Source: Spirochaetota bacterium (GTDB lineage: Bacteria > Spirochaetota > Spirochaetia > Treponematales > Breznakiellaceae). From it: DNA of 36,700 nucleotides. The notes under the pieces are model-generated. The model was not told the DNA's origin. It saw only the letters and a program-made list of their open reading frames with translations, and did no database searches. Of this stretch, positions 5,352-24,361 are shown one piece after another. The stretch's first letter is position 1, and every line of letters starts with the position of its first letter. Where the stretch lies: assembly GCA_009778155.1 (NCBI GenBank), contig WRKI01000351.1:1-36700 (forward strand), in the 5' to 3' direction. The translations under genes were made by a program, and so were the position numbers.

Positions 5352-6941
5352 ATGCGCTTGGCGCTTTCGGTTTTCCTACTATCTCTTTTTATTTTCCCGG
5401 CATTTTCCCAAGAAGAGGACGGCACAGACGCGCCACCCTACGCCGCCCCACAAGAAGAGGCCGGCGAGGCTCTGCCGCCGCACATCGCCGCCGGGGAAGG
5501 GGCGGTCTTTGTAATCAACTACTTTCATTTTGACATAAGCGGCCGCACGCGCCCCTTCGCCATACTGAACGCCCTGGAGATCGCCCTGGGGCAGGAAATT
5601 CAGGGCTACGAAGGCCTTCTCTTTTTTATCGCCGAAAAAGAACAGCTTCTTGTAAACGAAAGGCTTTTTAACAGGGCAGACTTGGCCTACTCCGTAGGCG
5701 CCCCGGATGCCGCCGGCAGGTTCCCCCTAGACCTTTTTTTTACAATAGAAGACACATGGAATATAATCGTTCTTCCCCGGCCGAACTACAGTTCCAACAC
5801 GGGCTTTGAGCTTTCCCTAAGCGGCAGGGATTACAACTTTCTGGGCACTATGCACCCCCTGCGCCTTGATTTGACCTACAGGCGCGACACCCAGGGGCGC
5901 AGTTCCTTTGAGTTCCTTTGGGACTCGGACACACCCTTTGTCGCCCTGGGATTGAACTGGCGTTTCATTTTTTTGACAGGCTTTGAATACCGCGTGGACT
6001 CCGATGCGCCGGTGCACTTTTTGAACACCACCGGGCTTGCCGCAGATTTGCCGCTTGGGGGCACGACCCTTACGCTGGGTTTTACCGAATCCTTCATATA
6101 TAATGATGAAAATACGGATAGGGACGCGCCGATCTTCGGGGATTACCAGATGGGCTTTTATATGTCCTCCATGCCCTTTGCCTCCTGGGAAATTCCTACC
6201 GGCGTGGAGGCTTGGCGTTTCGGCGATTTGGTTTACACAGCCCATGTTGCCGGGGTTTTTAACCACGCTTTCAGCCGCTGGCCGCTTGCGGAAAACCGCG
6301 TCGGCCCTTTTTTAGTTTTCGGGCACAGCCTGGGCTTTGAACGGATTGACTGGATTGGCAATTTCCGCCACGGCGGCGGCCTTTACCTCGAAAATTCCTA
6401 CAACCACGATTTTCATTTGAGCGGGAGGGGGCGGGCGGCCTTGAATGTTTACACTGCGGCGACGGCCACCGGCCACTACGCTTTGGGCGGCAGGGCGGGA
6501 GTTTCGGCGCGGCTAATGTTCCGCCACTGGCACTACAGGGATTTTAATTTTAACGACGAGGCCGGCAACGCGATTCGCGGGATTCTTGACCGCTCGCTTA
6601 CGGCAAGCAAGATGCTTTCGCTGAATCTGGATTTTCCGGTCCGCGTGCTGGACTTTACGCCCTCGGTGTGGACGGGCAACCCGCGCCTGCGTTTTTTCGA
6701 TTTTGAAATGCACATCTCCCCCATTGTCGATTTTGCCATTTTCCAAGACCCGCTTAATGGCATTTCCTTTGACATTTCCAACACCGTTATCGGCTACGGT
6801 TTTGAGCTTATGTTTTTTCCGGCGGCTATGCGGAGCATTTATGTGCGCATTAGTTTTGCCACAAATTTTTCCAGCCATTTGAGGGAGTCGCCGGGGGCCG
6901 GCGACAGCGAGTTGTTTTTCGGGTTAAGGCATCATTTTTAG
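5352..6941 (+). CDS. Omp85/D15-like outer-membrane beta-barrel protein
   Basis: The protein starts with a signal peptide (MRLALSVFLLSLFIFPAFS) followed by an acidic, Pro-rich linker. A single POTRA-like region covers about residues 60-130 (NYFHFDISGRTRP, then NERLFNRADLAYSV). A long series of alternating amphipathic strands follows and ends in an aromatic C-terminus (LFFGLRHHF), the usual barrel signal for the BAM machinery. About 529 residues is short for BamA, which has five POTRA domains, so this is a paralogue rather than BamA itself. The frame extends back to 5322, but only the ATG at 5352 has an AAAAGG ribosome site. It is probably co-transcribed with the GT2 gene 12 bases downstream and may act in surface assembly or export of the glycan made here. 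Confidence 0.72.
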   Translation: MRLALSVFLLSLFIFPAFSQEEDGTDAPPYAAPQEEAGEALPPHIAAGEGAVFVINYFHFDISGRTRPFAILNALEIALGQEIQGYEGLLFFIAEKEQLLVNERLFNRADLAYSVGAPDAAGRFPLDLFFTIEDTWNIIVLPRPNYSSNTGFELSLSGRDYNFLGTMHPLRLDLTYRRDTQGRSSFEFLWDSDTPFVALGLNWRFIFLTGFEYRVDSDAPVHFLNTTGLAADLPLGGTTLTLGFTESFIYNDENTDRDAPIFGDYQMGFYMSSMPFASWEIPTGVEAWRFGDLVYTAHVAGVFNHAFSRWPLAENRVGPFLVFGHSLGFERIDWIGNFRHGGGLYLENSYNHDFHLSGRGRAALNVYTAATATGHYALGGRAGVSARLMFRHWHYRDFNFNDEAGNAIRGILDRSLTASKMLSLNLDFPVRVLDFTPSVWTGNPRLRFFDFEMHISPIVDFAIFQDPLNGISFDISNTVIGYGFELMFFPAAMRSIYVRISFATNFSSHLRESPGAGDSELFFGLRHHF

Positions 6942-7803: not shown

Positions 7804-8868
7804 ATGAAGATACTTATTAACGGGGCCTTTCTTTGCAGTCCGGTAACCGGCCTTGAGCGTTTTGCGCGCCAAATTACAAAGGGGCTTGACGAAATATCAA
7901 AGGAGGGGGAGATTGGGATTGTCGTTCCAAAAAACGCGAAAAATGTCCCTGTGTACAAAAAAATCAAGGTTGTTTTTTACGAAAAGGATATAACATCGTT
8001 TTCCAAGTGGCAGCAGTTTATTCTGCCGCGCATTCTTAAAAAACATAAAGCCCTTCCGCTTGACTTCGGCAACAATTGCTCGCTATTGTGTCCGGGAATA
8101 AGTTTTTTGTATGACATTTATTGCGAGCTTTACCCGGAAGATTTTCAAACAAAAAAAGAAAAGCTGGTATGCTTAAACTCAAGGCTGATATATCGCATTA
8201 TCGCATACCGGGCGAAAAAAATAATCGCGCCGACATACTTCAGCAGGGGTCAAATTGCAAAAGCTTTTCGCATAACGCCAGACAGAATTGCCATTGTTCA
8301 CAATAGCTGGGAGCATTTTAACGATATAAAAAGCGACAGCTCTATTTTCAGCGATTTTCCGGTTTTGGCACAGAAGCCCTTTTATTTTTCCCTGGGAAGC
8401 CTTTCCAAGCGGAAAAACATTAAATGGATTATAGAATATGCGGCCAAAAATCCGTCCGCGCTTTTCGCGATTTCTGGAAGCGCCCTTAACAGCGTTAAGG
8501 TGGACGAGCTTTCCGGCGGCATTCCTGCGAATGTAATTCTTCTGGGTTATCTTGACGACGGGAAGGTAAAGGCGTTAATGGAAAAATGCAAGGCCTTTGT
8601 GCTTCCTTCGTATTATGAAGGCTTCGGTTTTACCCCGCTTGAAGCGCTCTCTTGCGGCGCGAAAATCATTGTCGCAAGGGCGGCAAGCCTGCCGGAGGTT
8701 TACGGGGGGGCGGCGCACTATATCGATCCTTTCGACACTGACGTTGATTTGGACAAACTTTTAGAGCAAGAGGTAGAGCCGCCGGATGAAGTTTTGAAAA
8801 AATACTCTTACGATGAGTCTGTCCGGCTGGTGTACGATTTAATACAGGAATGCATAAAAAAATCTTAA
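7804..8868 (+). CDS. Family 4 glycosyltransferase, tandem paralogue 1
   Basis: A 354-residue GT-B retaining glycosyltransferase (GT4, group 1). The second Rossmann domain carries FYFSLGSLSKRKN and the signature EGFGFTPLEAL with its E-x7-E pair, then ARAASLPEVYGGAAHYIDPF. It has no membrane segments and would act on the cytoplasmic side with a nucleotide-sugar donor. It is clearly homologous to the next two genes over the whole length. Its last codons overlap the start of the next gene by 19 bases. The donor and linkage are unknown. Confidence 0.88.
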   Translation: MKILINGAFLCSPVTGLERFARQITKGLDEISKEGEIGIVVPKNAKNVPVYKKIKVVFYEKDITSFSKWQQFILPRILKKHKALPLDFGNNCSLLCPGISFLYDIYCELYPEDFQTKKEKLVCLNSRLIYRIIAYRAKKIIAPTYFSRGQIAKAFRITPDRIAIVHNSWEHFNDIKSDSSIFSDFPVLAQKPFYFSLGSLSKRKNIKWIIEYAAKNPSALFAISGSALNSVKVDELSGGIPANVILLGYLDDGKVKALMEKCKAFVLPSYYEGFGFTPLEALSCGAKIIVARAASLPEVYGGAAHYIDPFDTDVDLDKLLEQEVEPPDEVLKKYSYDESVRLVYDLIQECIKKS

Positions 8869-9926
8869 TTAACGGCTATTTTTTACGGCGTAAAATTACA
8901 GGCATAGAGCGTTACGCGTATGAAATTACAATGCGGCTTGACAAAATAAGCCTGCCCGGAGAAATTGCAATCATCGTGCCGGGAAACACGGCGAATGTGC
9001 CGCATTTTTCAAACATAGAGCTGATCCGCCATAAAAAAGCGGCCTCCTCCCATATTTTGTGGCAGATGCTGACACTGCAAAGTTTTCTTTTGCGTAACAG
9101 GCGTTATACGGTTTTGGAGTTCGGCAACACCTGCCTGCCTTTTGCGCCGGGCATTGTGTGCCTTCACGACATATACTGCGAATTTTTTCGTGAGGATTTT
9201 TCCACGTTTAAGGACAAGGTTATACGATTGTACAATAGATTGCAGTATCGTTTTATTGCGCGTCTTGCGAAAAAAATAGTAACGGTGTCAGAGTATTCAA
9301 GGGACGAAATTTCAAAGGCGCTTTCCGTTGACCCTTCGCGCATAAGCGTAATCTACTCTAGCGCGGATCATGTAAAATCAATAAAAGCGGACGACGGCGT
9401 TTTCAAACGTTTTCCCGCTCTTTTGGAAACTCCCTTTTATTTTTCCCTGGGCAGCCTTTCCAAGCGCAAAAACCTGCGCTGGATTCTGGAACACGCGGCA
9501 CTGCGCCCCGAATCGCTTTTTGCAGTTTCTGGCGCGAGCCTTCCCACGGTAAAGGTGCGGGAGCTGCAGCAGCCGGTGCCGCCCAACGTGATAATGCTCG
9601 GCTACTTGGAAGACGGGGAGGTCAAGGCGCTTATGCAAAAGTGCAAGGCCTTTATCCTTCCGTCTTATTACGAAGGCTTCGGCCTTACCCCGCTGGAGGC
9701 TCTGGCGGCCGGCGCAAAAGTGATTGTCGCAAATGCTGCGAGCCTTCCGGAAATTTACGGCAGGACGGCCCGCTACATTGACCCTTTCAACTTTGACGTA
9801 AATCTGGAAGAGCTTTTAAGCCAGCCGGCAGAGCCGCCGGATGAAATTCTGGCAAAGTATTCATTCGACCGTGCGGCGCGGCAAGTGTACGATCTTATAA
9901 AAGGCGCGTATGAAAATAATCATTAA
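8850..9926 (+). CDS. Family 4 glycosyltransferase, tandem paralogue 2
   Basis: A 358-residue GT4 enzyme with the same architecture as its neighbours: FYFSLGSLSKRKNLRW, then SYYEGFGLTPLEALAAG with the E-x7-E pair, and ASLPEIYGRTARYIDPFNFD. Its N-terminus (HKKILINGYFLRRKITGIERYAYEI) differs most from paralogue 1, while the C-terminal donor domain is very similar to paralogue 3. That suggests acceptor divergence with shared donor use, which is an inference. It overlaps the upstream gene by 19 bases and the downstream gene by 17 bases, and both starts depend on translational coupling because no strong ribosome site is visible. Confidence 0.88.
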   Translation: MHKKILINGYFLRRKITGIERYAYEITMRLDKISLPGEIAIIVPGNTANVPHFSNIELIRHKKAASSHILWQMLTLQSFLLRNRRYTVLEFGNTCLPFAPGIVCLHDIYCEFFREDFSTFKDKVIRLYNRLQYRFIARLAKKIVTVSEYSRDEISKALSVDPSRISVIYSSADHVKSIKADDGVFKRFPALLETPFYFSLGSLSKRKNLRWILEHAALRPESLFAVSGASLPTVKVRELQQPVPPNVIMLGYLEDGEVKALMQKCKAFILPSYYEGFGLTPLEALAAGAKVIVANAASLPEIYGRTARYIDPFNFDVNLEELLSQPAEPPDEILAKYSFDRAARQVYDLIKGAYENNH

Positions 9927-12012: not shown

Positions 12013-12129
12013 TTTTGACGTTGATCTGGAAGAGCTTTTAAGCCAGCCGGTCGATTCGCCGGATTGATTTCTGGCAAAATACTCATGCAACAGGGCGGCG
12101 GGGCAAACGCGCCTTATAAAGGAAACATT
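12013..12129 (+). pseudogene. Decayed 3' end of a fourth GT4 glycosyltransferase gene
   Basis: Translated with two frame changes, this stretch reads FDVDLEELLSQPVDSPD, stop, FLAKYSCNRAAGQ and then a LIK-like end. This matches the C-terminus of GT4 paralogue 2 (FDVNLEELLSQPAEPPDEILAKYSFDRAARQ). The DNA similarity to 9797-9905 is plain. It contains an in-frame TGA and indels, so it is a remnant. It shows that the GT4 array was once longer, or that a tail was duplicated when the Rpn gene arrived. Confidence 0.8.
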
Positions 12130-15607: not shown

Positions 15608-17137
15608 ATGAATCTTGATAAAATACTTTCAAATAAACGCGCCCTTTATGCAGGCCTTGCGCTTGTCGCATTTTCGCTTGTGTATACGTCCACGCTGAAC
15701 CCGCTCTTAAACCGGGTAATGCATATCGACACGACCGTTTATATGTCAATCACGCAAGGGCTTTCCCAGGGGCTTGTATTGTACAGAGACCTTGCGGATA
15801 ACAAGGGGCCGCTGTTGTATTTTATGAGCCTGCCCGGTTTTCGCCTTGCCGGGTTGACAGGCGTGTGGATCGGGCAGTTTGTTTTTATGTACGTTTCGCT
15901 TTTTTTCATGTACAAAACGGCGCTTTTGTTCGCCGGCGCGAAAACGGCGTTTCTAACCGTGGCCTTTACATCCCTTGCAATGCATCCGTTTTATGTAGTT
16001 CATGCAGGCGTGGAAGAATACGCGCTGCCTTTTCTGGCCGCCTCTCTTTACATTTTTACAAAGCATTATCTCAGCGGCAAAGGGACAGCTTTTTGGGAAA
16101 TAGTTGTTTTGGGTTTTTCTTTCGCATGGGCTATCATGCTGCGCCTTAATATGTTCCCGCTTTGGGCCGGCTTTTGTCTTGTAATCGTTATCGAAGCCGC
16201 CGCAAAAAAAAACTTTGCCGAAATATTCAAATATATCGGCGCTTTTATCCTTGGAACGCTTGCCGTTCTTTTTCCCGTTTTTTTGTATTTATGGAGAAGC
16301 GACATATTAGTAGATTTTTACTACAATGTTATTCTGGGCAGCACCGAAAGGGGATTCTTGCTTTCCCTGCAAAGTTTTGTCCATAATTTCTACGCCATTA
16401 TTAACAGAAGTTTTTCGTTTATCCCCCTTTGCATCGCCATAGCTTGGGTTTTTATAAAATACAAAGGGATAAGCAACTTTTATTTTGCCGGCTTTATTTT
16501 GTCGTATTTTCTCAGCGTTCTTTTTCTTTCTTTTGCGCCCGGCGGGGAAAATTGGAATTTGATTTTAATCCCCTTTTTCGTTCCCGTTATCGCTTTTTTG
16601 TCAGATTCGTTTTTGAACAGTTTCAAAACAAAATACAAACACGCGGCTTTGATACTTGTATTTTGCATAACTTTTTCAGAAGGGGTTGTCAGAATGGGAT
16701 TTTATTTTTTTTTCCCGATTGATTCTGGTATCCCCTACAGAAACGCCGGGAGAATTATCGATGAAAATACGACTCCTTACGATACAATGATAAGCCTTGG
16801 ATGGGGGGCAAACATATATCCCTTTGCGAACAGACGGCCCGCTTCAAGGTTCCTTTTCCAAAATGAGCCTGATGGTTACAGGCCTGGCGCTTTCGATCAT
16901 ATGCCGGACGCTAGGGGGGAATTCATTGCGGCCATCTTAAACAACCCGCCAAAAATAATCGTCTTTTTGGTAAATGCCAACGGACAGGCCTACCAGCTTC
17001 ACCCCTCATGGCACGCGCCGATTCTTGGCATGATGGAAACACACTACAGGCTTTTGTACGGCGACCACCGCGTAAGAATTTTTATAAGGGAAGATGCCGA
17101 AACAGACACGGCAGAATTTGCAAATTCTAGAATTTGA
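15608..17137 (+). CDS. GT39/PMT-type integral-membrane glycosyltransferase, tandem paralogue 3
   Basis: A 509-residue multi-pass GT-C protein. The acidic loop motifs are MHIDTTVYMSI and DLADNKGPLLYF, and the C-terminal domain has IIDENTTPYDTMISLGWGANIYPF. It carries a short insertion relative to its paralogues (NEPDGYRPGAFDHMPD) and a charged C-terminal tail. The start at 15608 is chosen by alignment of MNLDKILSNKRALYAG; a TTG at 15566 in the same frame would overlap the previous gene. The leader repeats the GGTTTGCGC-TTAT block seen before paralogue 2, marking the duplication unit. Acceptor and sugar are unknown. Confidence 0.82.
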   Translation: MNLDKILSNKRALYAGLALVAFSLVYTSTLNPLLNRVMHIDTTVYMSITQGLSQGLVLYRDLADNKGPLLYFMSLPGFRLAGLTGVWIGQFVFMYVSLFFMYKTALLFAGAKTAFLTVAFTSLAMHPFYVVHAGVEEYALPFLAASLYIFTKHYLSGKGTAFWEIVVLGFSFAWAIMLRLNMFPLWAGFCLVIVIEAAAKKNFAEIFKYIGAFILGTLAVLFPVFLYLWRSDILVDFYYNVILGSTERGFLLSLQSFVHNFYAIINRSFSFIPLCIAIAWVFIKYKGISNFYFAGFILSYFLSVLFLSFAPGGENWNLILIPFFVPVIAFLSDSFLNSFKTKYKHAALILVFCITFSEGVVRMGFYFFFPIDSGIPYRNAGRIIDENTTPYDTMISLGWGANIYPFANRRPASRFLFQNEPDGYRPGAFDHMPDARGEFIAAILNNPPKIIVFLVNANGQAYQLHPSWHAPILGMMETHYRLLYGDHRVRIFIREDAETDTAEFANSRI

Positions 17138-17190
17138 CGCATCGGAGTAACAGTGCTCCCCCTGCATCTTGCACTGCGGCTTCAACGGCC

Positions 17191-17219
17191 TTGAATATTG
17201 CAAGAAGATGTGTTATATT
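17191..17219 (+). promoter_or_regulatory. Predicted promoter upstream of the antitoxin-like gene and the synthase
   Basis: TTGAAT (17191-17196) and TATATT (17214-17219) are separated by 17 bases. The predicted start lies about 25 bases before the ATG at 17252, which in this case has a good GGAGG ribosome site. It may drive the small gene and the following synthase. Confidence 0.5.
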
Positions 17220-17251
17220 TTAATAAAGCCAAGAAGATTGGAGGTTTGATT

Positions 17252-17458
17252 ATGTTCGCTATTAAAGCAATTTACGATGGAAACGGTTTCAAATTTGAGG
17301 AACCTATCCCTGTAAAAGGAAAATACGAGGTCATTATTGCATTTACAAAGCCGATAGAAAAAACTCAAGAAAAAATCTTAGAGTATTTTAACACTTGGGA
17401 TGAAGACGATGTAAATTCTGTAGCAGAAATAATGAATGAACGAGGCAATTTATTTTAA
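17252..17458 (+). CDS. Small antitoxin-like protein (orphan)
   Basis: A 68-residue protein beginning MFAIKAIYDGNGFKFEEPIPVKGKYEVIIAF. This resembles the short beta-hairpin opening of small antitoxins of the AF2212/DUF2281 type, followed by an acidic helix (TWDEDDVNSVAEIMNERG). The ATG has an ideal GGAGG site. No toxin gene (PIN or RelE-like) follows; the next gene is a sugar synthase. It is A/T-richer than its neighbours. It may be an orphan left from a toxin-antitoxin module, or a regulator. The family assignment is a resemblance only. Confidence 0.5.
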   Translation: MFAIKAIYDGNGFKFEEPIPVKGKYEVIIAFTKPIEKTQEKILEYFNTWDEDDVNSVAEIMNERGNLF

Positions 17459-17487
17459 ATTGGTTGGAATGAACCATTGAAACAATC

Positions 17488-18633
17488 ATGAAAACACTAA
17501 TCATAATCATAACATACAACGAGATAGAAAACATCCCGTTGTTAATTCCTCAGTTGTTTGAAACAATACCGCCCAACGTGGATGTCCTTGTTGTCGATGA
17601 CAGCTCGCCGGACGGGACAGGTGCCGCCGTGGAAGAGCTTGCGAAAAAATACCCAGGGCGTTTGCATTTGTTTACAAGGCCGGTGAAAGAAGGAACGGCG
17701 AAGGCCTATCTTGCCGGCTTTCGCTGGGGCATGGAAAAAAACTATGACGCTTATTTGCAGTTTGACGGGGATTTTTCGCATAACCCGAAATATATCGCGG
17801 CAATGCTCGAAGAAATAAAAACGCACGATGTCGTTGTAGGATCGCGTTATATAAAAGGCGGGCACATAGAAGACTGGACATTGCAGAGAAAAATAATCTC
17901 AAGAGGCGGCTCTCTTTATTCGCGCATTATTTTATCCTGCCCGGTAAAAGATTTAACAGGCGGCTACAATATGTGGCGCAAAACGGCCCTTGAAAAAATA
18001 AACCTTGACGGTATCATCTCTAAAAGTTATTCTCTGCAAATAGAGCTTAAATACAAGGCCTTTTGCGCCGGCTGTTCCATAAAGGAAGTTCCCATAACGT
18101 TTACCGACAGGGAGCGCGGCGTTTCAAAAATTTCTAATAACACCCTGTTGGAAGCCCTTGTCAATGTCTGGAAAATAAAAAAGAACGTCAACATTGACGG
18201 CGCGATAGATCAGTTTTTGAAATTCGCGGCAACCGGCGGGCTTGGCGCTGTTTTGAACCTTTTAATATTTTTCCTAAGCGTGGATGTGGCCGGCCTTCCG
18301 CCTGTCCCAGTGAGCGTCGCTTTGTTTTTGCTGATCGGCTTACAAAATTATATCATAAACCACAAATGGTCGTTCAAGCAGAACACGGGAGGCGAGCCTT
18401 TGTCGTTTAAAAAATGGTTTATGTTCATGTGCGGTGCGCTTGTCGGCTATCTGGCAAATGTCTCCGCAATGAGCTTCATGCTTTGGCAGTTCGAACTGCC
18501 TTGGAAAACAATAGCGCAGGCCTCAGGCATAGCCGTGGGAATGTTCATAAACTTCGCTGTTTCTAGAACGATTGTTTTCAGAAAAAAAAGCGACAGCGCG
18601 GCCACAGCAACAGAAAAGAAGGAGAAACAATGA
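17488..18633 (+). CDS. Polyprenyl-phosphate mannose/glucose synthase (DPM1-like GT2) fused to a GtrA membrane domain
   Basis: The N-terminal ~235 residues are a DPM1-type GT2: LIIIITYNEIENIPLLI, VVDDSSPDGTG, FDGDFSHNPKYI, DVVVGSRYIKGG, then RERGVSKIS and EALVNVWKIKKN. The C-terminal ~130 residues are a GtrA domain with four hydrophobic helices (FLKFAATGGLGAVLNLLIFF, then NYIINHKWSFK, and FINFAVSRTIVFRKK). The first part transfers sugar from GDP-Man or UDP-Glc to a polyprenyl phosphate and the second probably helps it cross the membrane. Placed right after three GT39 enzymes, it is the likely source of their lipid-linked donor. Fusions of this kind are known. The C-terminal tail (SATATEKKEKQ) ends in an overlap with the next open frame. 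Confidence 0.87.
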   Translation: MKTLIIIITYNEIENIPLLIPQLFETIPPNVDVLVVDDSSPDGTGAAVEELAKKYPGRLHLFTRPVKEGTAKAYLAGFRWGMEKNYDAYLQFDGDFSHNPKYIAAMLEEIKTHDVVVGSRYIKGGHIEDWTLQRKIISRGGSLYSRIILSCPVKDLTGGYNMWRKTALEKINLDGIISKSYSLQIELKYKAFCAGCSIKEVPITFTDRERGVSKISNNTLLEALVNVWKIKKNVNIDGAIDQFLKFAATGGLGAVLNLLIFFLSVDVAGLPPVPVSVALFLLIGLQNYIINHKWSFKQNTGGEPLSFKKWFMFMCGALVGYLANVSAMSFMLWQFELPWKTIAQASGIAVGMFINFAVSRTIVFRKKSDSAATATEKKEKQ

Positions 18634-18681
18634 AGCCGCTAATAACCGACATAGGCGGGGTGGCAGGCTCCTGTTTGGCCG
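18596..18681 (+). repeat. Junction repeat (copy 1 of 2): synthase 3' end plus epimerase 5' start
   Basis: These 86 bases match 18945-19030 at about 84 percent by eye. Each copy encodes an AATATE-K-KQ tail, then overlaps an ATG beginning a P/SLIT-IGG sequence. The repeat therefore spans a gene-to-gene junction. Copy 1 continues into unrelated sequence; copy 2 continues into the intact epimerase. Confidence 0.85.
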
Positions 18682-18815
18682 TGTTTTCAGAGCCGCTTTA
18701 CACAATAGAAACAGACTTAACTGCGCAAGAGATTGCGATGATAGACGAAGGCATGGCGGAGTATCGGAAAAATCCGTCAAGTTTCGTTCCGCTTGAAAAC
18801 TTAGGGAAACGCTGA
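18630..18815 (+). pseudogene. Chimeric short frame: epimerase start joined to an antitoxin-like tail
   Basis: The first ~18 codons (MKPLITDIGGVAGSCLA) are a diverged copy of the epimerase N-terminus at 18979. The remainder (DLTAQEIAMIDEGMAEYRKNP) is unrelated to epimerases and looks like the tail of a small antitoxin. The stop TGA lies inside a 15-bp palindrome (18804-18842), so the last residues (GKR) come from the repeat. It has a good AAGGAG site and may be translated, but it is best read as debris of an insertion. Confidence 0.6.
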
Positions 18816-18916
18816 TTAACTCGAAGCTAATCAGCGTTTCCCTCTGCATTTGCTCATTTCATTGCGCAAATGCGGTTAAGAACACTGATTAAATCCTCGA
18901 TGGGATTTAATCAGTG
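18804..18916. repeat. Cluster of three hairpins
   Basis: Three inverted repeats follow one another. A 15-bp perfect stem GGGAAACGCTGATTA pairs 18804-18818 with 18828-18842. An 8-bp stem pairs 18846-18853 with 18866-18873. A 14-bp perfect stem CACTGATTAAATCC pairs 18883-18896 with 18903-18916. The outer two share the core CTGATTA. No T-run follows, so they are not typical intrinsic terminators. They separate the chimeric frame from the intact epimerase. Confidence 0.8.
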
Positions 18917-18944
18917 CTTCCTTAAAATAGCCGTTGGGCGGACG

Positions 18945-19030
18945 GCGCGGCTACAGCAACAGAGGAGAAGAAGAAACAATGACTTCGCTAATAACCGGCA
19001 TAGGCGGAATGGTAGGCTCGCATTTGGCCG
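18945..19030 (+). repeat. Junction repeat (copy 2 of 2)
   Basis: This is the counterpart of 18596-18681, offset by 349 bases. Its first part would encode AATATEEKKKQ and a stop, a ghost of the synthase C-terminus; its second part is the real start of the epimerase gene. The GAGGAGAAGAAG stretch leaves the ribosome site slightly further from the ATG than in copy 1. Confidence 0.85.
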
Positions 19031-19947
19031 AGCTTCTTTTGAAAAACGGAGACAAGGTCGTAGGAATATATTACAACTCGACGGTAAACTTGGAAGAAGC
19101 ACTGGAAAAAGCGACACTGGACTCGCTTGTTTTAATCGAATGCGATGTAAGGTATTTTAACTCCGTTTATGCGGCAATATTGCAGAACCTTCCAGAGCGA
19201 ATATTTCATTTGGCGGCTCAAAGTTTGCCGGCCGCCTCGCTGTTAAAGCCGCAGGAAACCTTTGACATAAATTGCGGCGGCACAATAAATGTTTTTGAAT
19301 CGATAAAAATGATACGAAAACAATTGCCGCATTACAACCCAAAAGTTGTTGTAGCCGCATCCAGTGCCCAGTACGGCGCGTCTCTTACGCCGGAAAACAC
19401 CCCCATAAAGGAAGACGCGCCGCTTTTGCCGCTACACCCATACGGGGCAAGCAAGGTAGCGCAGGACTTGCTTACATTTCAATACTATAAAAGCGATCAC
19501 CTTGCCGGCATCCGCGCACGCATATTTAACACAACAGGCCCCAGAAAGACAAACGATGTTTGTTCAGATTTCACCAAACGCGCGGTGGAAATAGAGCGGG
19601 GGAAAAGCGAAAAACTTCTTGTGGGCAACATAACGACAAAAAGAGCGATAACGGATGTTAGGGATTTAGTCATCGCATTGAAACTGCTTTCGGAAAAAGG
19701 TGAGCCGGGCGAGGTTTACAATATATCCGGCGAGAAGGTTTACGAAGTACGTGAAATCATCGAACTTATAAAGAAAAACTCAAGCGCAAAGATTGAGATC
19801 GAAGAAGACCCGCGCCTTTTAAGGCCGACAGACGAGCCTGTAATTTTCGGGGACTCTGCAAAGTTAAAAAAACTTACGCAGTGGCGGCAAGAGTACCCTA
19901 TAGAACAAACGATAGCGGATATGTTAGAATACTGGAGAAAGCGATAA
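18979..19947 (+). CDS. NAD-dependent sugar-nucleotide epimerase/dehydratase-family enzyme (GDP-sugar type)
   Basis: A 322-residue extended short-chain dehydrogenase. The NAD motif TGIGGMVGSHL is at 6-16, with HLAAQSLPAAS, the YGASK catalytic Tyr/Lys in HPYGASKVAQD, and RIFNTTGPRK. It resembles GDP-mannose dehydratase/reductase (GMD/RMD) relatives. At the active-site strand it has ASSAQYG, lacking the acidic residue of 4,6-dehydratases (T-S/D-E), so a reductase or epimerase is more likely than a dehydratase. Next to the GDP-heptose genes it may modify GDP-heptose or a GDP-deoxyhexose. The start at 18979 is chosen because upstream frames are repeat sequence. Substrate is uncertain. Confidence 0.8.
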   Translation: MTSLITGIGGMVGSHLAELLLKNGDKVVGIYYNSTVNLEEALEKATLDSLVLIECDVRYFNSVYAAILQNLPERIFHLAAQSLPAASLLKPQETFDINCGGTINVFESIKMIRKQLPHYNPKVVVAASSAQYGASLTPENTPIKEDAPLLPLHPYGASKVAQDLLTFQYYKSDHLAGIRARIFNTTGPRKTNDVCSDFTKRAVEIERGKSEKLLVGNITTKRAITDVRDLVIALKLLSEKGEPGEVYNISGEKVYEVREIIELIKKNSSAKIEIEEDPRLLRPTDEPVIFGDSAKLKKLTQWRQEYPIEQTIADMLEYWRKR

Positions 19948-19962
19948 GCCGGCAGGCTTGTT

Positions 19963-20021
19963 AAGGAGAAGCCAATGGTAATAAGATCGAAAGCGCCGCT
20001 GCGGCTGGGGCTTGCAGGCGG
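19963..20021 (+). repeat. hddA 5' repeat (copy 1 of 2)
   Basis: These 59 bases, running from the ribosome site AAGGAG through codon 15-16 of hddA, are identical to 21355-21413 except for one base. The copy follows the epimerase stop and leads into unrelated DNA. Near-identity implies a recent event. Confidence 0.95.
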
Positions 20022-20178
20022 CGATAAAGCCAATATCGATAAAACCCATATAGGCATTATCAGCATGAAGGAACGTGCCGCGATACTCGGCGGCAGCCTA
20101 AAAATTATCAGCGCACCGGAGGAAGCGCATTGGTGCGCCTTGAAATTCCGCTGTTTTAGTGTTATGTTTATAACATGA
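19975..20178 (+). pseudogene. Chimeric frame: hddA start joined to a sensor histidine kinase scrap
   Basis: The first 15-16 codons (VIRSKAPLRLGLAGG) are the hddA N-terminus. They run into THIGIISMKERAAILGGSLKIISAPEE, which is the G-box region of NarX/NreB-type histidine kinases (GIxGMRERAxxLGGxLxIxSAPxxG). The frame then dissolves. It keeps a good ribosome site but cannot give a working kinase of either type. It marks the left end of an insertion of about 1.4 kb. Confidence 0.75.
20140..20175 (+). promoter_or_regulatory. Predicted promoter with operator-like palindrome at the toxin-antitoxin start
   Basis: TTGAAA (20140-20145) and TATGTT (20163-20168) are 17 bases apart, and the ATG at 20175 follows six bases later, so the mRNA would be leaderless. 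The inverted repeat TGTTAT-N4-ATAACA (20160-20175) overlaps the -10 and the first base of the gene. This is a fitting place for an autoregulatory operator of a toxin-antitoxin module. No Shine-Dalgarno sequence is present. Confidence 0.55.
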
Positions 20179-20507
20179 GCGATAAACAAACTGGACAACC
20201 GGCAATTCCGCCATATTTACTGTGGTCTTTTGATAAAAAAAAGGTATGTCCGCTACGGATGTATAAAACCATTATTGAGCAGGTTTTGGAGCGTGGATCC
20301 ATTAAAGATATAGCGGAAATTATCAGGTTTTATGGTCTTGATAAAGTACAAGATGTGGCACTGCGGATTAAGGTATTAAATCCGAAAAAAGTTAATTTAT
20401 TGTCACTTATATGGGATATTCCCCGGGAACAATTCAATGCTTGGAATACAAGAGATTGGGAAAAGATATATGGCGGATTTCTTGGTAAAAGAAACAGTTT
20501 CGGATGA
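20175..20507 (+). CDS. DUF6922-like protein, probable antitoxin partner of the AbiEii-type toxin
   Basis: A 110-residue protein with PPYLLWSFDKKKVCPLRMYKTIIEQVLERGSIKDIAEIIRFYG. I recognise this layout from the small DUF6922-like proteins that precede AbiEii nucleotidyltransferases. It is likely a helical, DNA-binding or toxin-neutralising partner. It overlaps the next gene, the usual arrangement for a toxin-antitoxin operon. The gene is distinctly A/T-rich compared with the surrounding locus, which points to horizontal acquisition. The start codon is set by the promoter geometry and protein family, since there is no ribosome site. The family name is from memory. Confidence 0.6.
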   Translation: MSDKQTGQPAIPPYLLWSFDKKKVCPLRMYKTIIEQVLERGSIKDIAEIIRFYGLDKVQDVALRIKVLNPKKVNLLSLIWDIPREQFNAWNTRDWEKIYGGFLGKRNSFG

Positions 20508-21144
20508 CCTTATTGAAGTAGCCGGAAAACTGTGTGAAATTCCCAGTTTAAAGGAATTCAATATAGTAGGCGGAACGGCTCTTGCTTTGCAGATTGGACA
20601 TAGGAAGTCCATAGATATTGATATGTTTTATAATTCATTGGAAATATCTGTAGATTTTGCCTCAATTTTAGATGATTGCAGGGATACATTTAAAAAAATT
20701 GAGGTCGTTTCAATTTATGAAAACAGAGCTTTGATAACCAATATAGAAAATATTAAAGTAGACATAGCTGTTCAAAGAAATTCAATAATGCTGGATAAAC
20801 CAATAGTTATCAAAGGTTTACGGTTAGCATCCATAAGAGATATAGCGGCCATGAAAATAATGGCAGTGGCAACAACCAGTAATAGAATTAAAGATTATGT
20901 AGATATTTATTATTTATTAAAGCAGTTTTCTTTGGAGTCTTTGTTAGATTTATACCTTGAAAAATATAACGCCGATAATGTTCAAACAGCATTGGAAAAT
21001 TTACCATATTTTTATGATGTGTCGCAGGACGAATTTGAAGCCTTGGATTTTATGGATACTGCCCCGTCATTAAAAGAGATGTGCAGCGTTCTAGCTTGCG
21101 AAGTAAAAAAATATTCTAAAAAGATTATGAAGCAGGATGTTTAA
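20470..21144 (+). CDS. AbiEii/AbiGii-type nucleotidyltransferase toxin
   Basis: A 224-residue minimal nucleotidyltransferase-fold protein. The signature GGTALALQIGHRKSIDIDMF lies at 34-53, with the GG pair and the two metal-binding Asp (49, 51). It is followed by KVDIAVQ, IRDIAAMKIMA and NRIKDYVDIYYLL, all usual for AbiEii. Such toxins modify tRNA or other targets by nucleotide transfer and work in phage defence or plasmid addiction. The frame is open from 20437; 20470 is preferred because it gives the family N-terminus, but neither start has a strong ribosome site. The gene is A/T-rich like its partner, and both sit inside the hddA duplication. Confidence 0.82.
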   Translation: MADFLVKETVSDDLIEVAGKLCEIPSLKEFNIVGGTALALQIGHRKSIDIDMFYNSLEISVDFASILDDCRDTFKKIEVVSIYENRALITNIENIKVDIAVQRNSIMLDKPIVIKGLRLASIRDIAAMKIMAVATTSNRIKDYVDIYYLLKQFSLESLLDLYLEKYNADNVQTALENLPYFYDVSQDEFEALDFMDTAPSLKEMCSVLACEVKKYSKKIMKQDV

Positions 21145-21254
21145 GGAATGGAAATACTGTTAAGGCAACCTCCAACTCTTTATACTGTAGCAGTTACGAG
21201 TTTGCGGTTTTCTCTAAAGGGTACGTCGTACCACCGGTACGCAACCTCTAAAAA

Positions 21255-21312
21255 ATGTCAAACAGGTTTTTGTTAGCTGCTCTTTTCGATGTCTGGAAAA
21301 TAAAAAAATTGC
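21255..21312 (+). pseudogene. Scrap of a DPM1-like synthase gene
   Basis: One frame reads KMSNRFLLAALFDVWKIKKL. It matches the end of a DPM1-type GT2 domain (compare SNNTLLEALVNVWKIKKN in the gene at 17488; the DNA ATGTCTGGAAAATAAAAAA is shared). The rest of 21145-21354 holds a small GTACG-rich inverted repeat near 21220-21241 and nothing recognisable. It suggests that the inserted DNA came from, or recombined with, a related glycan locus. Confidence 0.5.
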
Positions 21313-21354
21313 AAAAAAGCAGATGCGTTGCAACACGCAGTAAATTTGCGATAA

Positions 21355-21413
21355 AAGGAGAAGCCAATGGTAATAAGATCGAAAGCACCGCTGCGGCTGG
21401 GGCTTGCAGGCGG
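21355..21413 (+). repeat. hddA 5' repeat (copy 2 of 2, in the intact gene)
   Basis: Second copy of the 59-base block at 19963-20021, with one difference. It includes the AAGGAG ribosome site and start of the functional hddA. The bases just before it (GCGATAAAAGG) again resemble the end of the epimerase gene (GCGATAA), so the repeat may have spanned the epimerase-hddA junction. Confidence 0.93.
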
Positions 21414-22416
21414 AGGCAGCGACATTGCCGCTTATTACAATTTGCATGGCGGCTATGTATTAAATGTTACGATAGATATGTACGCCTACTGCACGATAGA
21501 AGTCGGCGGCAGTCCCGGAAAAATCGAATTTGTCGCCGCCGACCTTGACATAAAAGAAGAGCATGATACTGCGGAAAAACTCCCTGTTTCAAGCTCCCTG
21601 CCGCTCCATGCCGGCACTTACAATAGCATTGTAAGCAACTTTGTCAAAAAGCCGCTTTCATTCAAAATGACGACATACTCCGACGCGCCGGCAGGCTCCG
21701 GGCTGGGGTCTTCTTCTACAATGGTTGTGGCTATGATAAAAGCCTATGAAGAATGGCTGAACCTGCCGTTAGGCGAATACGACATTTCCGCGCTCGCCTG
21801 CAAGATCGAACGGGAGGATTTAAGCCTTGCCGGTGGCAAACAGGATCAATATGCGGCAACCTTCGGCGGCTTTAACTTTATGGAATTTTACGACAACGAG
21901 CGCGTGATCGTAAACCCGCTTCGTCTGAAGAAATGGATACGCAACGAGCTTGAAAGCTCTCTTGTTTTATACTATACCGGCGTTTCAAGGGAAAGCGCAA
22001 ACATAATAAAAGAGCAAATCCGGCACGCCGAAAAAGGCGATGCAAAAAACATTGAAAGTATGCACGAGGTTAAACAGCAGGCCGTCTTTATGAAAGAAGC
22101 CATACTGAAGGGCGACTTCGAGATGTTTTCCTCCTGCCTTGAAAAAGGCTGGCTTGCAAAGAAAAACTCGGCGGCTTCAATTTCAAACGCTTTTTTGGAC
22201 GGCCTGTATCAGTACGCAATTGACAACGGGGCGAAATCGGCAAAAATTTCTGGCGCGGGCGGCGGCGGCTTTATGATGATTTATTGCGACCCCTGCCTTC
22301 GCGTAAAACTTATACGCGCTCTTAACGAGCATCCGCAGACGGGAAAAACGGGAACAGTTTTAACGACAAGCTTTACAGAAAGGGGAACACAGGCATGGAC
22401 TATTTACAGCAACTAA
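21367..22416 (+). CDS. hddA: D-glycero-alpha-D-manno-heptose 7-phosphate kinase
   Basis: A 349-residue GHMP-family kinase. It phosphorylates the C1 hydroxyl of D-glycero-D-manno-heptose 7-phosphate to give the alpha-1,7-bisphosphate. It has the N-terminal SKAPLRLGLAGGGSD, the phosphate loop PAGSGLGSSS at 108-117, AGGKQDQYAATFGGFN, and the C-terminal KISGAGGGGFMMIY. The AAAAGGAG site is ideally placed. It overlaps gmhA by 22 bases. The alpha-specific kinase implies the GDP-heptose rather than the ADP-heptose branch. This intact copy lies downstream of its own duplicated start. Confidence 0.92.
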   Translation: MVIRSKAPLRLGLAGGGSDIAAYYNLHGGYVLNVTIDMYAYCTIEVGGSPGKIEFVAADLDIKEEHDTAEKLPVSSSLPLHAGTYNSIVSNFVKKPLSFKMTTYSDAPAGSGLGSSSTMVVAMIKAYEEWLNLPLGEYDISALACKIEREDLSLAGGKQDQYAATFGGFNFMEFYDNERVIVNPLRLKKWIRNELESSLVLYYTGVSRESANIIKEQIRHAEKGDAKNIESMHEVKQQAVFMKEAILKGDFEMFSSCLEKGWLAKKNSAASISNAFLDGLYQYAIDNGAKSAKISGAGGGGFMMIYCDPCLRVKLIRALNEHPQTGKTGTVLTTSFTERGTQAWTIYSN

Positions 22417-23024
22417 CCGGCCGCTACCCGGCCTTGGCCGGCTGCACGGCGGACATTGAAAAGGCCTTCGCCGTTATGGTGAAATGTTTTTCCGGCGGCG
22501 GCAAACTGCTTGTCGCCGGCAACGGCGGCAGTGCGGCGGACGCTCAGCATATTGTAGGCGAGCTTATGAAAAGTTTCGTAAAAAAAAGACCCCCGCCAAA
22601 GGATTTTCTCTTGGAACTTGAGAAAATTGACGCATCTATAGCCGAAAACTTGAGCGCGCGCCTGCAAAGCGGGCTTTCGGCCATAGCGTTATCTGAACAT
22701 TCTGCCCTTAACACAGCCCTTATAAACGATATTGACGGGAGTATCACCTTTGCCCAGCAGGTTTTAGGGTACGGCAAGGAAGGGGATGTGTTTATGGGGC
22801 TTTCGACCTCGGGGAATGCGAAAAACGTGATATACGCGGCGGCGGTGGCAAAGGCAAAAAAAATGCCTGTAATCGCCCTTACCGGCGGTGGGGGAGGGGG
22901 GCTTAGACGCTTGGCGGATGTCGCTATAATTGTGCCGGAGACGGAAACATATAAAATCCAGGAGCTTCACCTGCCGGTTTACCACTGCCTGTGCCTTATG
23001 TTGGAGGATTATTTTTTCCAATGA
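22395..23024 (+). CDS. gmhA: Sedoheptulose 7-phosphate isomerase (phosphoheptose isomerase)
   Basis: A 209-residue SIS-domain isomerase converting sedoheptulose 7-phosphate to D-glycero-D-manno-heptose 7-phosphate, the first step of heptose nucleotide synthesis. The sugar-phosphate loop GNGGSAADAQHIVGELMKS begins at 42, STSGNAKNVIYAA is present, and IQELHLPVYHCLC near the C-terminus carries the metal/active-site His. The gene starts within hddA and ends overlapping the next gene as ATGA, giving a tightly coupled three-gene heptose cassette. Confidence 0.94.
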   Translation: MDYLQQLTGRYPALAGCTADIEKAFAVMVKCFSGGGKLLVAGNGGSAADAQHIVGELMKSFVKKRPPPKDFLLELEKIDASIAENLSARLQSGLSAIALSEHSALNTALINDIDGSITFAQQVLGYGKEGDVFMGLSTSGNAKNVIYAAAVAKAKKMPVIALTGGGGGGLRRLADVAIIVPETETYKIQELHLPVYHCLCLMLEDYFFQ

Positions 23025-24361
23025 AAACAGTCATAATGGCCGGCGGCAAGGGAACCCGCATAGCCTCTGTAGCGTCAGACATTCCCAAGGCGATGATCCC
23101 TGTTTGCGGCAAGCCGATCTTGGAACACCAGATCGGCGTTTTGAAAAAAAACGGATTTACCGACATCATAATCGTTACGGGACATCTTGGCCGGCATATA
23201 AAAAATTATTTCGGCGACGGGCGCAGCTTCGGTTGCAACATTTCTTATTTTAGCGAAATACAGCCGCTGGGTACGGCCGGCTCTCTTTACAAGCTGGAAG
23301 AGCTTGCCGAAGATTTTATTTTATTGAACGGCGACATAATTTTTGACGCGGACTTGCAGCGCATGGCGGCCTTCCATAAAAACAAAAAAGCCGCCGCTAC
23401 GCTTGCAGTTCACCCGAACAACCACCCTTTCGACAGTGCGCTTATCTTTTGCGATGCCGGCGGTGTCGTAAGAAAATGGCTTAACAAGGAAGATGAAAGA
23501 TCGTATTACAAAAACCTTGTAAACTCCGGGCTTCACATTATTTCCCCGGAGCTTTTGCGACTTTGTCCGCAGGCAAAAGAAAAGGTCGATCTTGACCGCG
23601 ATATTTTAAAGCCCTTTATACCCAGCGGGAAAATTTTCGCATACATTACCCCAGAGTACATCAAAGATATGGGCACCCCCGATCGTTACGCGCAAGTTTG
23701 CTCCGATATTGAAAAAGGCATTGTCGCCGGAAAAAACCTAAAAGTAAAACAAAAGGCTGTTTTTCTGGACAGGGATGGCACGATAAACAAACTCAAGGGC
23801 TTTATTAAAAAGCCCGATGACTTTGAACTTATCGAAGACGTGGCGCAGGCGATAAAAAAAATCAACTCGCTTGGCTTTTTGGCGGTTGTAATAACAAACC
23901 AGCCGGTAATCGCAAGGGGCGAGGCGGATTTTGAAACATTGGATTTAATCCACAGAAAAATGGAAACAGAGCTTGGAAAAGAGGGCGCGTATGTGGACGA
24001 CATTTATTTTTGCCCGCACCACCCCGACCGAGGCTTTCCCGGAGAGAACGCCCAGTACAAAACAGACTGCCCCTGCCGCAAGCCCAAGCCGGGGATGATT
24101 CTGGCCGCCGCAGAAAAATACAACATAGATATTTCAAAATCGTACATGGCCGGCGACGACAAGCGGGATGTGCAGGCCGGGATAAACGCCGGCTGCACAA
24201 GTGTTTTTCTAAGCGACAAAAGCGAAGAGGCCGAAAACATAAAAGAAAACTGTCCACAAGAGAATGTTTTGTTTTACCCTTCCTTGAACGAATTCGCGGA
24301 CTTTCTGCTGGAGCAAGAGGGCGGGGCAGGGGCACCCGGCGCGAATGAAAATCGCTATTGA
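23021..24361 (+). CDS. hddC-gmhB: Bifunctional D,D-heptose 1-phosphate guanylyltransferase / heptose 1,7-bisphosphate phosphatase (HddC-GmhB fusion)
   Basis: A 446-residue fusion. Residues 1-235 are a sugar-phosphate nucleotidyltransferase: MAGGKGTRIAS, IPKAMIPVCGKP, LNGDIIFDADL and EYIKDMGTPDRY. Residues 245-435 are a HAD phosphatase of the GmhB type: FLDRDGTINK (nucleophile Asp250, acid Asp252), ITNQPVIARG, the Zn-binding Cys331/His333 and Cys350/Cys352, and MAGDDKRDVQAG. Together they remove the 7-phosphate of heptose 1,7-bisphosphate and attach GMP to the resulting 1-phosphate. The start at 23021 is used because it gives the nucleotidyltransferase opening and an ATGA overlap with gmhA. 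With hddA and gmhA, all four steps to GDP-heptose are covered. Confidence 0.92.
   Translation: MKTVIMAGGKGTRIASVASDIPKAMIPVCGKPILEHQIGVLKKNGFTDIIIVTGHLGRHIKNYFGDGRSFGCNISYFSEIQPLGTAGSLYKLEELAEDFILLNGDIIFDADLQRMAAFHKNKKAAATLAVHPNNHPFDSALIFCDAGGVVRKWLNKEDERSYYKNLVNSGLHIISPELLRLCPQAKEKVDLDRDILKPFIPSGKIFAYITPEYIKDMGTPDRYAQVCSDIEKGIVAGKNLKVKQKAVFLDRDGTINKLKGFIKKPDDFELIEDVAQAIKKINSLGFLAVVITNQPVIARGEADFETLDLIHRKMETELGKEGAYVDDIYFCPHHPDRGFPGENAQYKTDCPCRKPKPGMILAAAEKYNIDISKSYMAGDDKRDVQAGINAGCTSVFLSDKSEEAENIKENCPQENVLFYPSLNEFADFLLEQEGGAGAPGANENRY

Follow-up and report, generated by a model that had tools for sequence, protein, structure and literature searches.

Results

The window, by which we mean the whole 36.7-kb stretch of DNA that was analysed, is contig C351 of a 3.5-Mb metagenome bin of a gut spirochaete in 353 contigs. 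A synthase gene on the + strand (17488-18633) encodes a GT2 polyprenyl-phosphate glycosyltransferase with a GtrA/DPMS membrane domain (Pfam PF00535 and PF04138), and is followed on the same strand by an intact gene for an NAD-dependent epimerase/dehydratase (18979-19947; PF16363, GDP_Man_Dehyd/Epimerase, E 1e-60). Our repeat search of the window showed that the boundary between these two genes is present twice, as a 95-nt direct repeat at 18592-18686 and 18941-19035 (both +; spacing 349) whose copies are 82% identical and differ at 17 of 95 bases. Self-BLAST of the window returned the pair with an E-value of about 2e-20. A preliminary description of this DNA had already reported the doubled boundary, at coordinates that proved correct to a few bases, with an identity of 84% estimated by eye over 86 nt.

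Copy 1 holds the last codons and the stop of the synthase, an ATG at 18630, a ribosome-binding site and, as a relic of the epimerase, its first 19 codons. Copy 2 carries the duplicated synthase tail, a ribosome-binding site and the functional epimerase start. That only copy 2 leads into the intact epimerase, as had been described, is confirmed by the 322-residue open reading frame behind it. The differences between the copies are spread evenly over the three codon positions (4/5/3), and comparison with the outgroup locus L014 counts 12 changes at codon positions 1 and 2 in copy 1 against 6 in copy 2, which together point to unconstrained drift of copy 1.

Our sample of 20-kb stretches covers about 734 kb of this genome (window included) and about 620 kb of relatives, the genomes being fragmented metagenome bins. 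The nearest ortholog, locus L014, comes from Treponema sp. isolate Emb289P3bin69 (genome G020), whose epimerase has 73% protein identity to that of the window. There 14 bases separate the synthase stop at 5986 from the epimerase ATG at 6001, and the junction contains neither an insert nor a duplication. We take this junction to be the empty site, as seen in one relative that is too diverged for base-exact breakpoints.

The 254 bases between the copies consist of the last ~40 codons of an antitoxin, split by a 117-bp miniature inverted-repeat element (MITE), and 10 further bases. The antitoxin tail (18687-18804, +) is fused in frame to copy 1, so that residues 20-61 of the open reading frame 18630-18815 match, by tblastn and HMMER, the final ~40 residues of antitoxins whose genes come directly after those of RelE/ParE-superfamily toxins in the same and related genomes. 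Intact cassettes matched in this way include those at L115, L116, L119, L122, L124 and others, with about 46-73% identity over the C-terminal, toxin-binding region, and there is a weak match to PF09720 Unstab_antitox (E 0.04, profile positions 23-53 of 54). The antitoxin-like tail that had been noticed behind copy 1 is borne out by these matches. Intact cassettes begin with a promoter, followed by the toxin and then the antitoxin, and the toxin matches PF05016 (E 2e-9) and RelE relatives in the PDB. The window relic has no promoter, no toxin and no N-terminal half of the antitoxin; no ParE-type toxin was found in the window, and a search of this genome gave only C344 and C334. Since the toxin gene is absent, the locus is a relic rather than a system, and it is these ~40 residues that point to the identity of the cargo. 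To the right of the MITE the antitoxin frame appears to resume as TTA AAA TAG (18922-18930, +), which would be the last codons of the interrupted gene, with a stop that fits those of intact relatives (IK-stop, VK-stop). The gap from this putative stop to copy 2 is 10 bases, and the corresponding gap is 1 base at L200, 41 at L201, 44 at L194 and 54 at L192.

Further antitoxin remnants were seen in this genome. Those at L151 (1639-1905, between 49-nt repeats of 92% identity) and L154 (736-1100, between 62-nt repeats of 82% identity) share with the window tail at 18687 the C-terminal part from near SE..IETDLT and, like it, have no toxin gene; L154 may be a decayed full-length antitoxin gene. Upstream in the window, a lone antitoxin-like open reading frame of 69 residues (17249-17458; weak AF2212-like/VapB similarity) lies between a membrane-protein gene (stop 17137) and the synthase. 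Neither a toxin nor a surrounding direct repeat was found for it, and it is possibly a third toxin-antitoxin (TA) remnant in the same operon.

The MITE occupies 18805-18921 (+), with terminal inverted repeats GGAAAC...GCTTCC and flanks TTAG/TTAA. It corresponds to a hairpin cluster in the preliminary description, and the hairpins are real (three of them, folding z = -9.9), but they stand outside the duplication process, as part of a nested element with its own 4-bp target duplication. Sixteen complete copies in our sample, 117-119 bp long, end in inverted repeats and are flanked by duplications of 4 bp of target, which are exact for 11 copies and agree at 3 of 4 bases for the other 5. The duplicated target is YTAR-like, a choice that we take to be IS5-like. 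The terminal inverted repeat has 266 matches genome-wide against 0 for a reversed control pattern, and we estimate about 130-150 copies in this genome. Paired changes are found in the stems (23 cells with both sides changed, compared with 7.7 in shuffles). No gene lies inside the element, and no autonomous partner was found among the terminal-repeat positions listed. Copies were seen at loci L094-L113 of this genome and, in diverged form, in genome G004, while most sampled relatives have none. That the hairpins form a structured RNA was considered and rejected, as there is no Rfam match and the element is a MITE.

One gene further downstream, the start of hddA is duplicated in the same layout. 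The two copies (19963-20021 and 21355-21413, both +; 59 nt, 98% identical) are made of a ribosome-binding site and the hddA start in copy 1, and in copy 2 lead into the intact hddA (21367-22416; NF049969 HddA, E 3e-129, 431.5 bits, below the 600-bit cut-off of the model). They enclose a DUF6922 protein, the probable antitoxin partner (20175-20507, +; PF21956, E 8e-15), and an AbiEii-type nucleotidyltransferase toxin (20437-21144, +; PF08843, E 3e-14) whose gene is the only copy in this genome. The DUF6922 protein also has a weak match, below cut-off, to an ISL3 helix-turn-helix. We read the hddA insertion as fresh and that between synthase and epimerase as a decayed one of the same kind. The identities of 98% and 82% agree with the earlier proposal that the synthase-epimerase duplication is the older, and our data support two independent events of one form.

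The ends of the hddA insert have features of their own. A C-terminal histidine-kinase fragment (NarQ-like) lies at the left end (20022-20178) and a ~34-nt fragment resembling part of the synthase gene (18149-18182) at the right end (21274-21307), so that the insert is a patchwork. Elsewhere in the window, partial copies of sugar-nucleotide gene ends near the open reading frame 12064 (9792-9884 / 12014-12106, and 8739-8807) are probably leftovers of tandem paralogs.

We then took 23 loci of the ParE-type cassette in the genus and counted those that lie between direct repeats with a length of 23 nt or more and an identity of 75% or more. Paralogous gene arrays were set aside as a source of repeats by leaving colinear repeat pairs out of the counts. 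Seven of the 23 cassettes lie inside direct repeats of 23-120 nt: L192 in this genome (90 nt, 95.6%), L194 (120 nt, 90.8%), L196 (91 nt, 94.5%), L201 (109 nt, 81.7%), L210 (55 nt, 100%), L200 (26 nt) and L211 (23 nt). Random 480-bp positions are enclosed in 0.19% of cases in relatives and in 2.4% in this genome; for relatives alone, 6/21 cassettes against 0.19% gives a binomial probability of 2.5e-12. The frequency of enclosing repeats varies widely between cassette families, with 1/30 for MazF-type and 2/20 for DUF6922 loci (one of them the hddA insert of the window), and the control gene rpsI gave 0/30. The remaining 16 ParE-type cassettes, all intact, have no detectable flanking repeat; they could be old, could have arrived by another mechanism, or could be cut by contig ends. 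The excess of repeats around defence genes leaves the proposal of a recurrent process standing, and the ParE-type counts support it.

Individual cases in the sample of this genome extend the pattern to a MazEF pair (56 nt, 96.4%), an Mrr nuclease (65 nt, 80%) and a BRO-N protein, each enclosed by repeats. At L141 (6633-9418), a BsoBI-type endonuclease and its methyltransferase lie inside a 69-nt direct repeat of 95.7% identity that spans a gene end. This is a restriction-modification (R-M) system inserted with a long target duplication in the genome to which the window belongs.

In cassettes that are 75-89% identical, homology covers the two genes and reaches no farther than about -45 (the promoter) on one side and +30 on the other, so that what moves is the bare pair of genes. 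A conserved attachment site was rejected, as the repeat sequence is different at every locus. No integrase was seen in the inserts of ~500-1400 bp, no transposase domain in those of their proteins that were scanned, and no inverted repeat pair of at least 25 nt within 16000-24000 of the window.

Repeats at L194, L196 and L238 run across a stop/start junction as in the window, those at L192, L210 (with a terminator), L211 and L141 run over a gene end, and that at L201 includes a promoter and start. The repeats at L168, L136 and L299 look intergenic, and that at L200 abuts the antitoxin stop. Most of the examined repeats that enclose TA or R-M genes extend over a start or a stop, and none was seen inside an intact gene. 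At L201 (251-962) the repeat includes the promoter region; copy 1 runs up to the start codon of the toxin and copy 2 ends in front of the host gene, an arrangement that suggests capture of the host promoter by the cassette. It had been suggested that the process targets gene boundaries. Of the 23 isolated local repeats in the genome sample, 8 span a boundary against 4.0 expected, a weak excess that counts the two cases of the window. Since only duplications that span a boundary leave both neighbours whole, the survivors look boundary-seeking, and survivorship is enough to account for their placement.

Discussion

Here, we have described a doubled gene junction with an antitoxin tail and a nested MITE between its copies. 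We consider it probable that this locus is the decayed scar of a bare type II TA cassette that was inserted with a long target duplication. The cassette would have had a RelE/ParE-superfamily toxin first and a PF09720-like antitoxin second, in ~530 bp and with no transposase, and its insertion at the synthase/epimerase junction would have copied at least 95 nt of the target. As copy 1 would have retained the synthase stop and copy 2 would have supplied a new ribosome-binding site and start to the epimerase, both neighbours stayed intact. A MITE would later have interrupted the antitoxin gene within its final codons. A deletion, before or after that landing, would have removed the promoter, the toxin and the N-terminal half of the antitoxin and fused copy 1 to the tail, and copy 1 would have drifted afterwards.

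It is conceivable that replication slippage first produced a tandem duplication of the junction, and that an antitoxin fragment and the MITE fell later into a functionless stretch between the copies. Local direct repeats are indeed frequent here (31 isolated pairs per Mb, compared with 10 in genome G021 and 0 in G020), some of them enclose no recognisable mobile gene, and the MITE did arrive secondarily between the copies. However, slippage leaves unexplained why intact TA cassettes lie immediately within near-identical repeats in several genomes, and why as few as 10 bases separate the antitoxin stop from copy 2. We regard this course of events as unlikely.

We think it quite unlikely that a diverged allele or paralog of the epimerase was recombined in downstream, leaving the old start behind as copy 1. 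An identity of 82%, the differences at functional residues in the epimerase start of copy 1 and the presence of SDR paralogs in the genome would all be in keeping with such a replacement. Yet the repeat includes the synthase tail and stops after 95 nt, its changes are distributed over the codon positions in the manner of a pseudogene, and an equal geometry is found at other junctions with 95-100% identity.

An artefact of assembling a metagenome bin is very improbable: although the bin consists of 353 contigs, many of which end inside the MITE, copies that differ at 17 of 95 bases cannot arise from misjoined identical k-mers, and the pattern repeats in independently assembled genomes. We give practically no weight to the hairpin element as the maker of an unusually long duplication, in the manner of a MITE or REP-type insertion, because the element sits between the copies but duplicates 4 bp of target in its 16 complete copies, and in the window is nested in the antitoxin tail.

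How the scar of the TA cassette was formed can be discussed in more tentative terms. With copies of 82% identity, separate and joint duplication and insertion cannot be told apart at the window locus. The simplest account would be that insertion of the cassette and duplication of 50-120 nt of the target took place in one event. One candidate step is a break with widely staggered ends that is filled in on both sides of a captured fragment; alternatively, replication could switch template to the cassette and return upstream of the point of departure, recopying 50-120 nt. The histidine-kinase and synthase-like fragments in the hddA insert favour template switching or fragment capture. A broader proposal, which we put forward as a possibility that is open to considerable doubt, is that type II TA pairs are mobile by themselves, a bare promoter-toxin-antitoxin segment of ~530 bp entering, as R-M systems do, in a way that leaves 50-120 bp of target duplicated; breaks induced by the toxin or nuclease would perhaps prime the event and addiction would fix its product.

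The duplicated target accounts for the ability of a cassette to enter a tight operon and leave the genes on both sides whole; where the two repeats are nearly identical, exact excision would be possible. Scars of the same kind around intact pairs in related spirochaetes are a clue to how TA pairs move. A bare cassette, a long target duplication and a preserved stop/start junction make up a signature that can be searched for in any genome.

Insertion of transposons and IS elements produces target duplications of 2-14 bp and involves a transposase. The loci described here differ from these in having repeats of 23-120 nt and, as far as the proteins of the inserts were scanned, no transposase domain, and from site-specific integrative elements in having no integrase in the inserts and no common attachment sequence. 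The element at 18805-18921 is like other MITEs in its terminal inverted repeats, short fixed target duplication, many dispersed copies and lack of coding capacity; what sets it apart here is its role as a nested passenger and not the source of the 95-nt duplication.

TA modules in intercistronic regions of operons are known from E. coli, such as relA-mazEF-mazG, dinB-yafNO-yafP and folA-ccdO157-apaH (PMC7167474). The window locus resembles them in that a pair lies between co-transcribed genes, is missing in sister strains and decays at its site, possibly with palindromic repeats, as related in the parts of that 2020 review that deal with these modules (PMC7167474). The same parts do not mention a long target duplication for them, and describe the mechanism of TA integration as unelucidated (PMC7167474).

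The closest parallel is with R-M systems, for which insertion with long (of the order of 100 bp) and variable target duplication is stated in the portions consulted of two articles (PMC3874152 and PMC3031569, both citing Nobusato 2000 and Furuta 2010). In the relevant portion of a comparison of R-M and TA systems, long target duplications are described for R-M only (PMC3874152), and a search of open-access text for TA modules with long target duplications or long direct repeats led to statements on R-M systems or to unrelated papers only. Shared with these insertions are a bare two-gene unit of addiction type with no transposase, variable direct repeats of ~100 bp copied from the target, and a single uninterrupted target in a related genome (here one relative, at 73% protein identity). 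The difference lies in the cargo, which is a decayed type II TA pair at the window locus and AbiEii/DUF6922 or MazEF elsewhere. The pattern links the mobility of TA pairs to an insertion mode known for R-M systems, and we file the window locus as a decayed variant, with TA cargo, of the R-M-type insertion with long target duplication.
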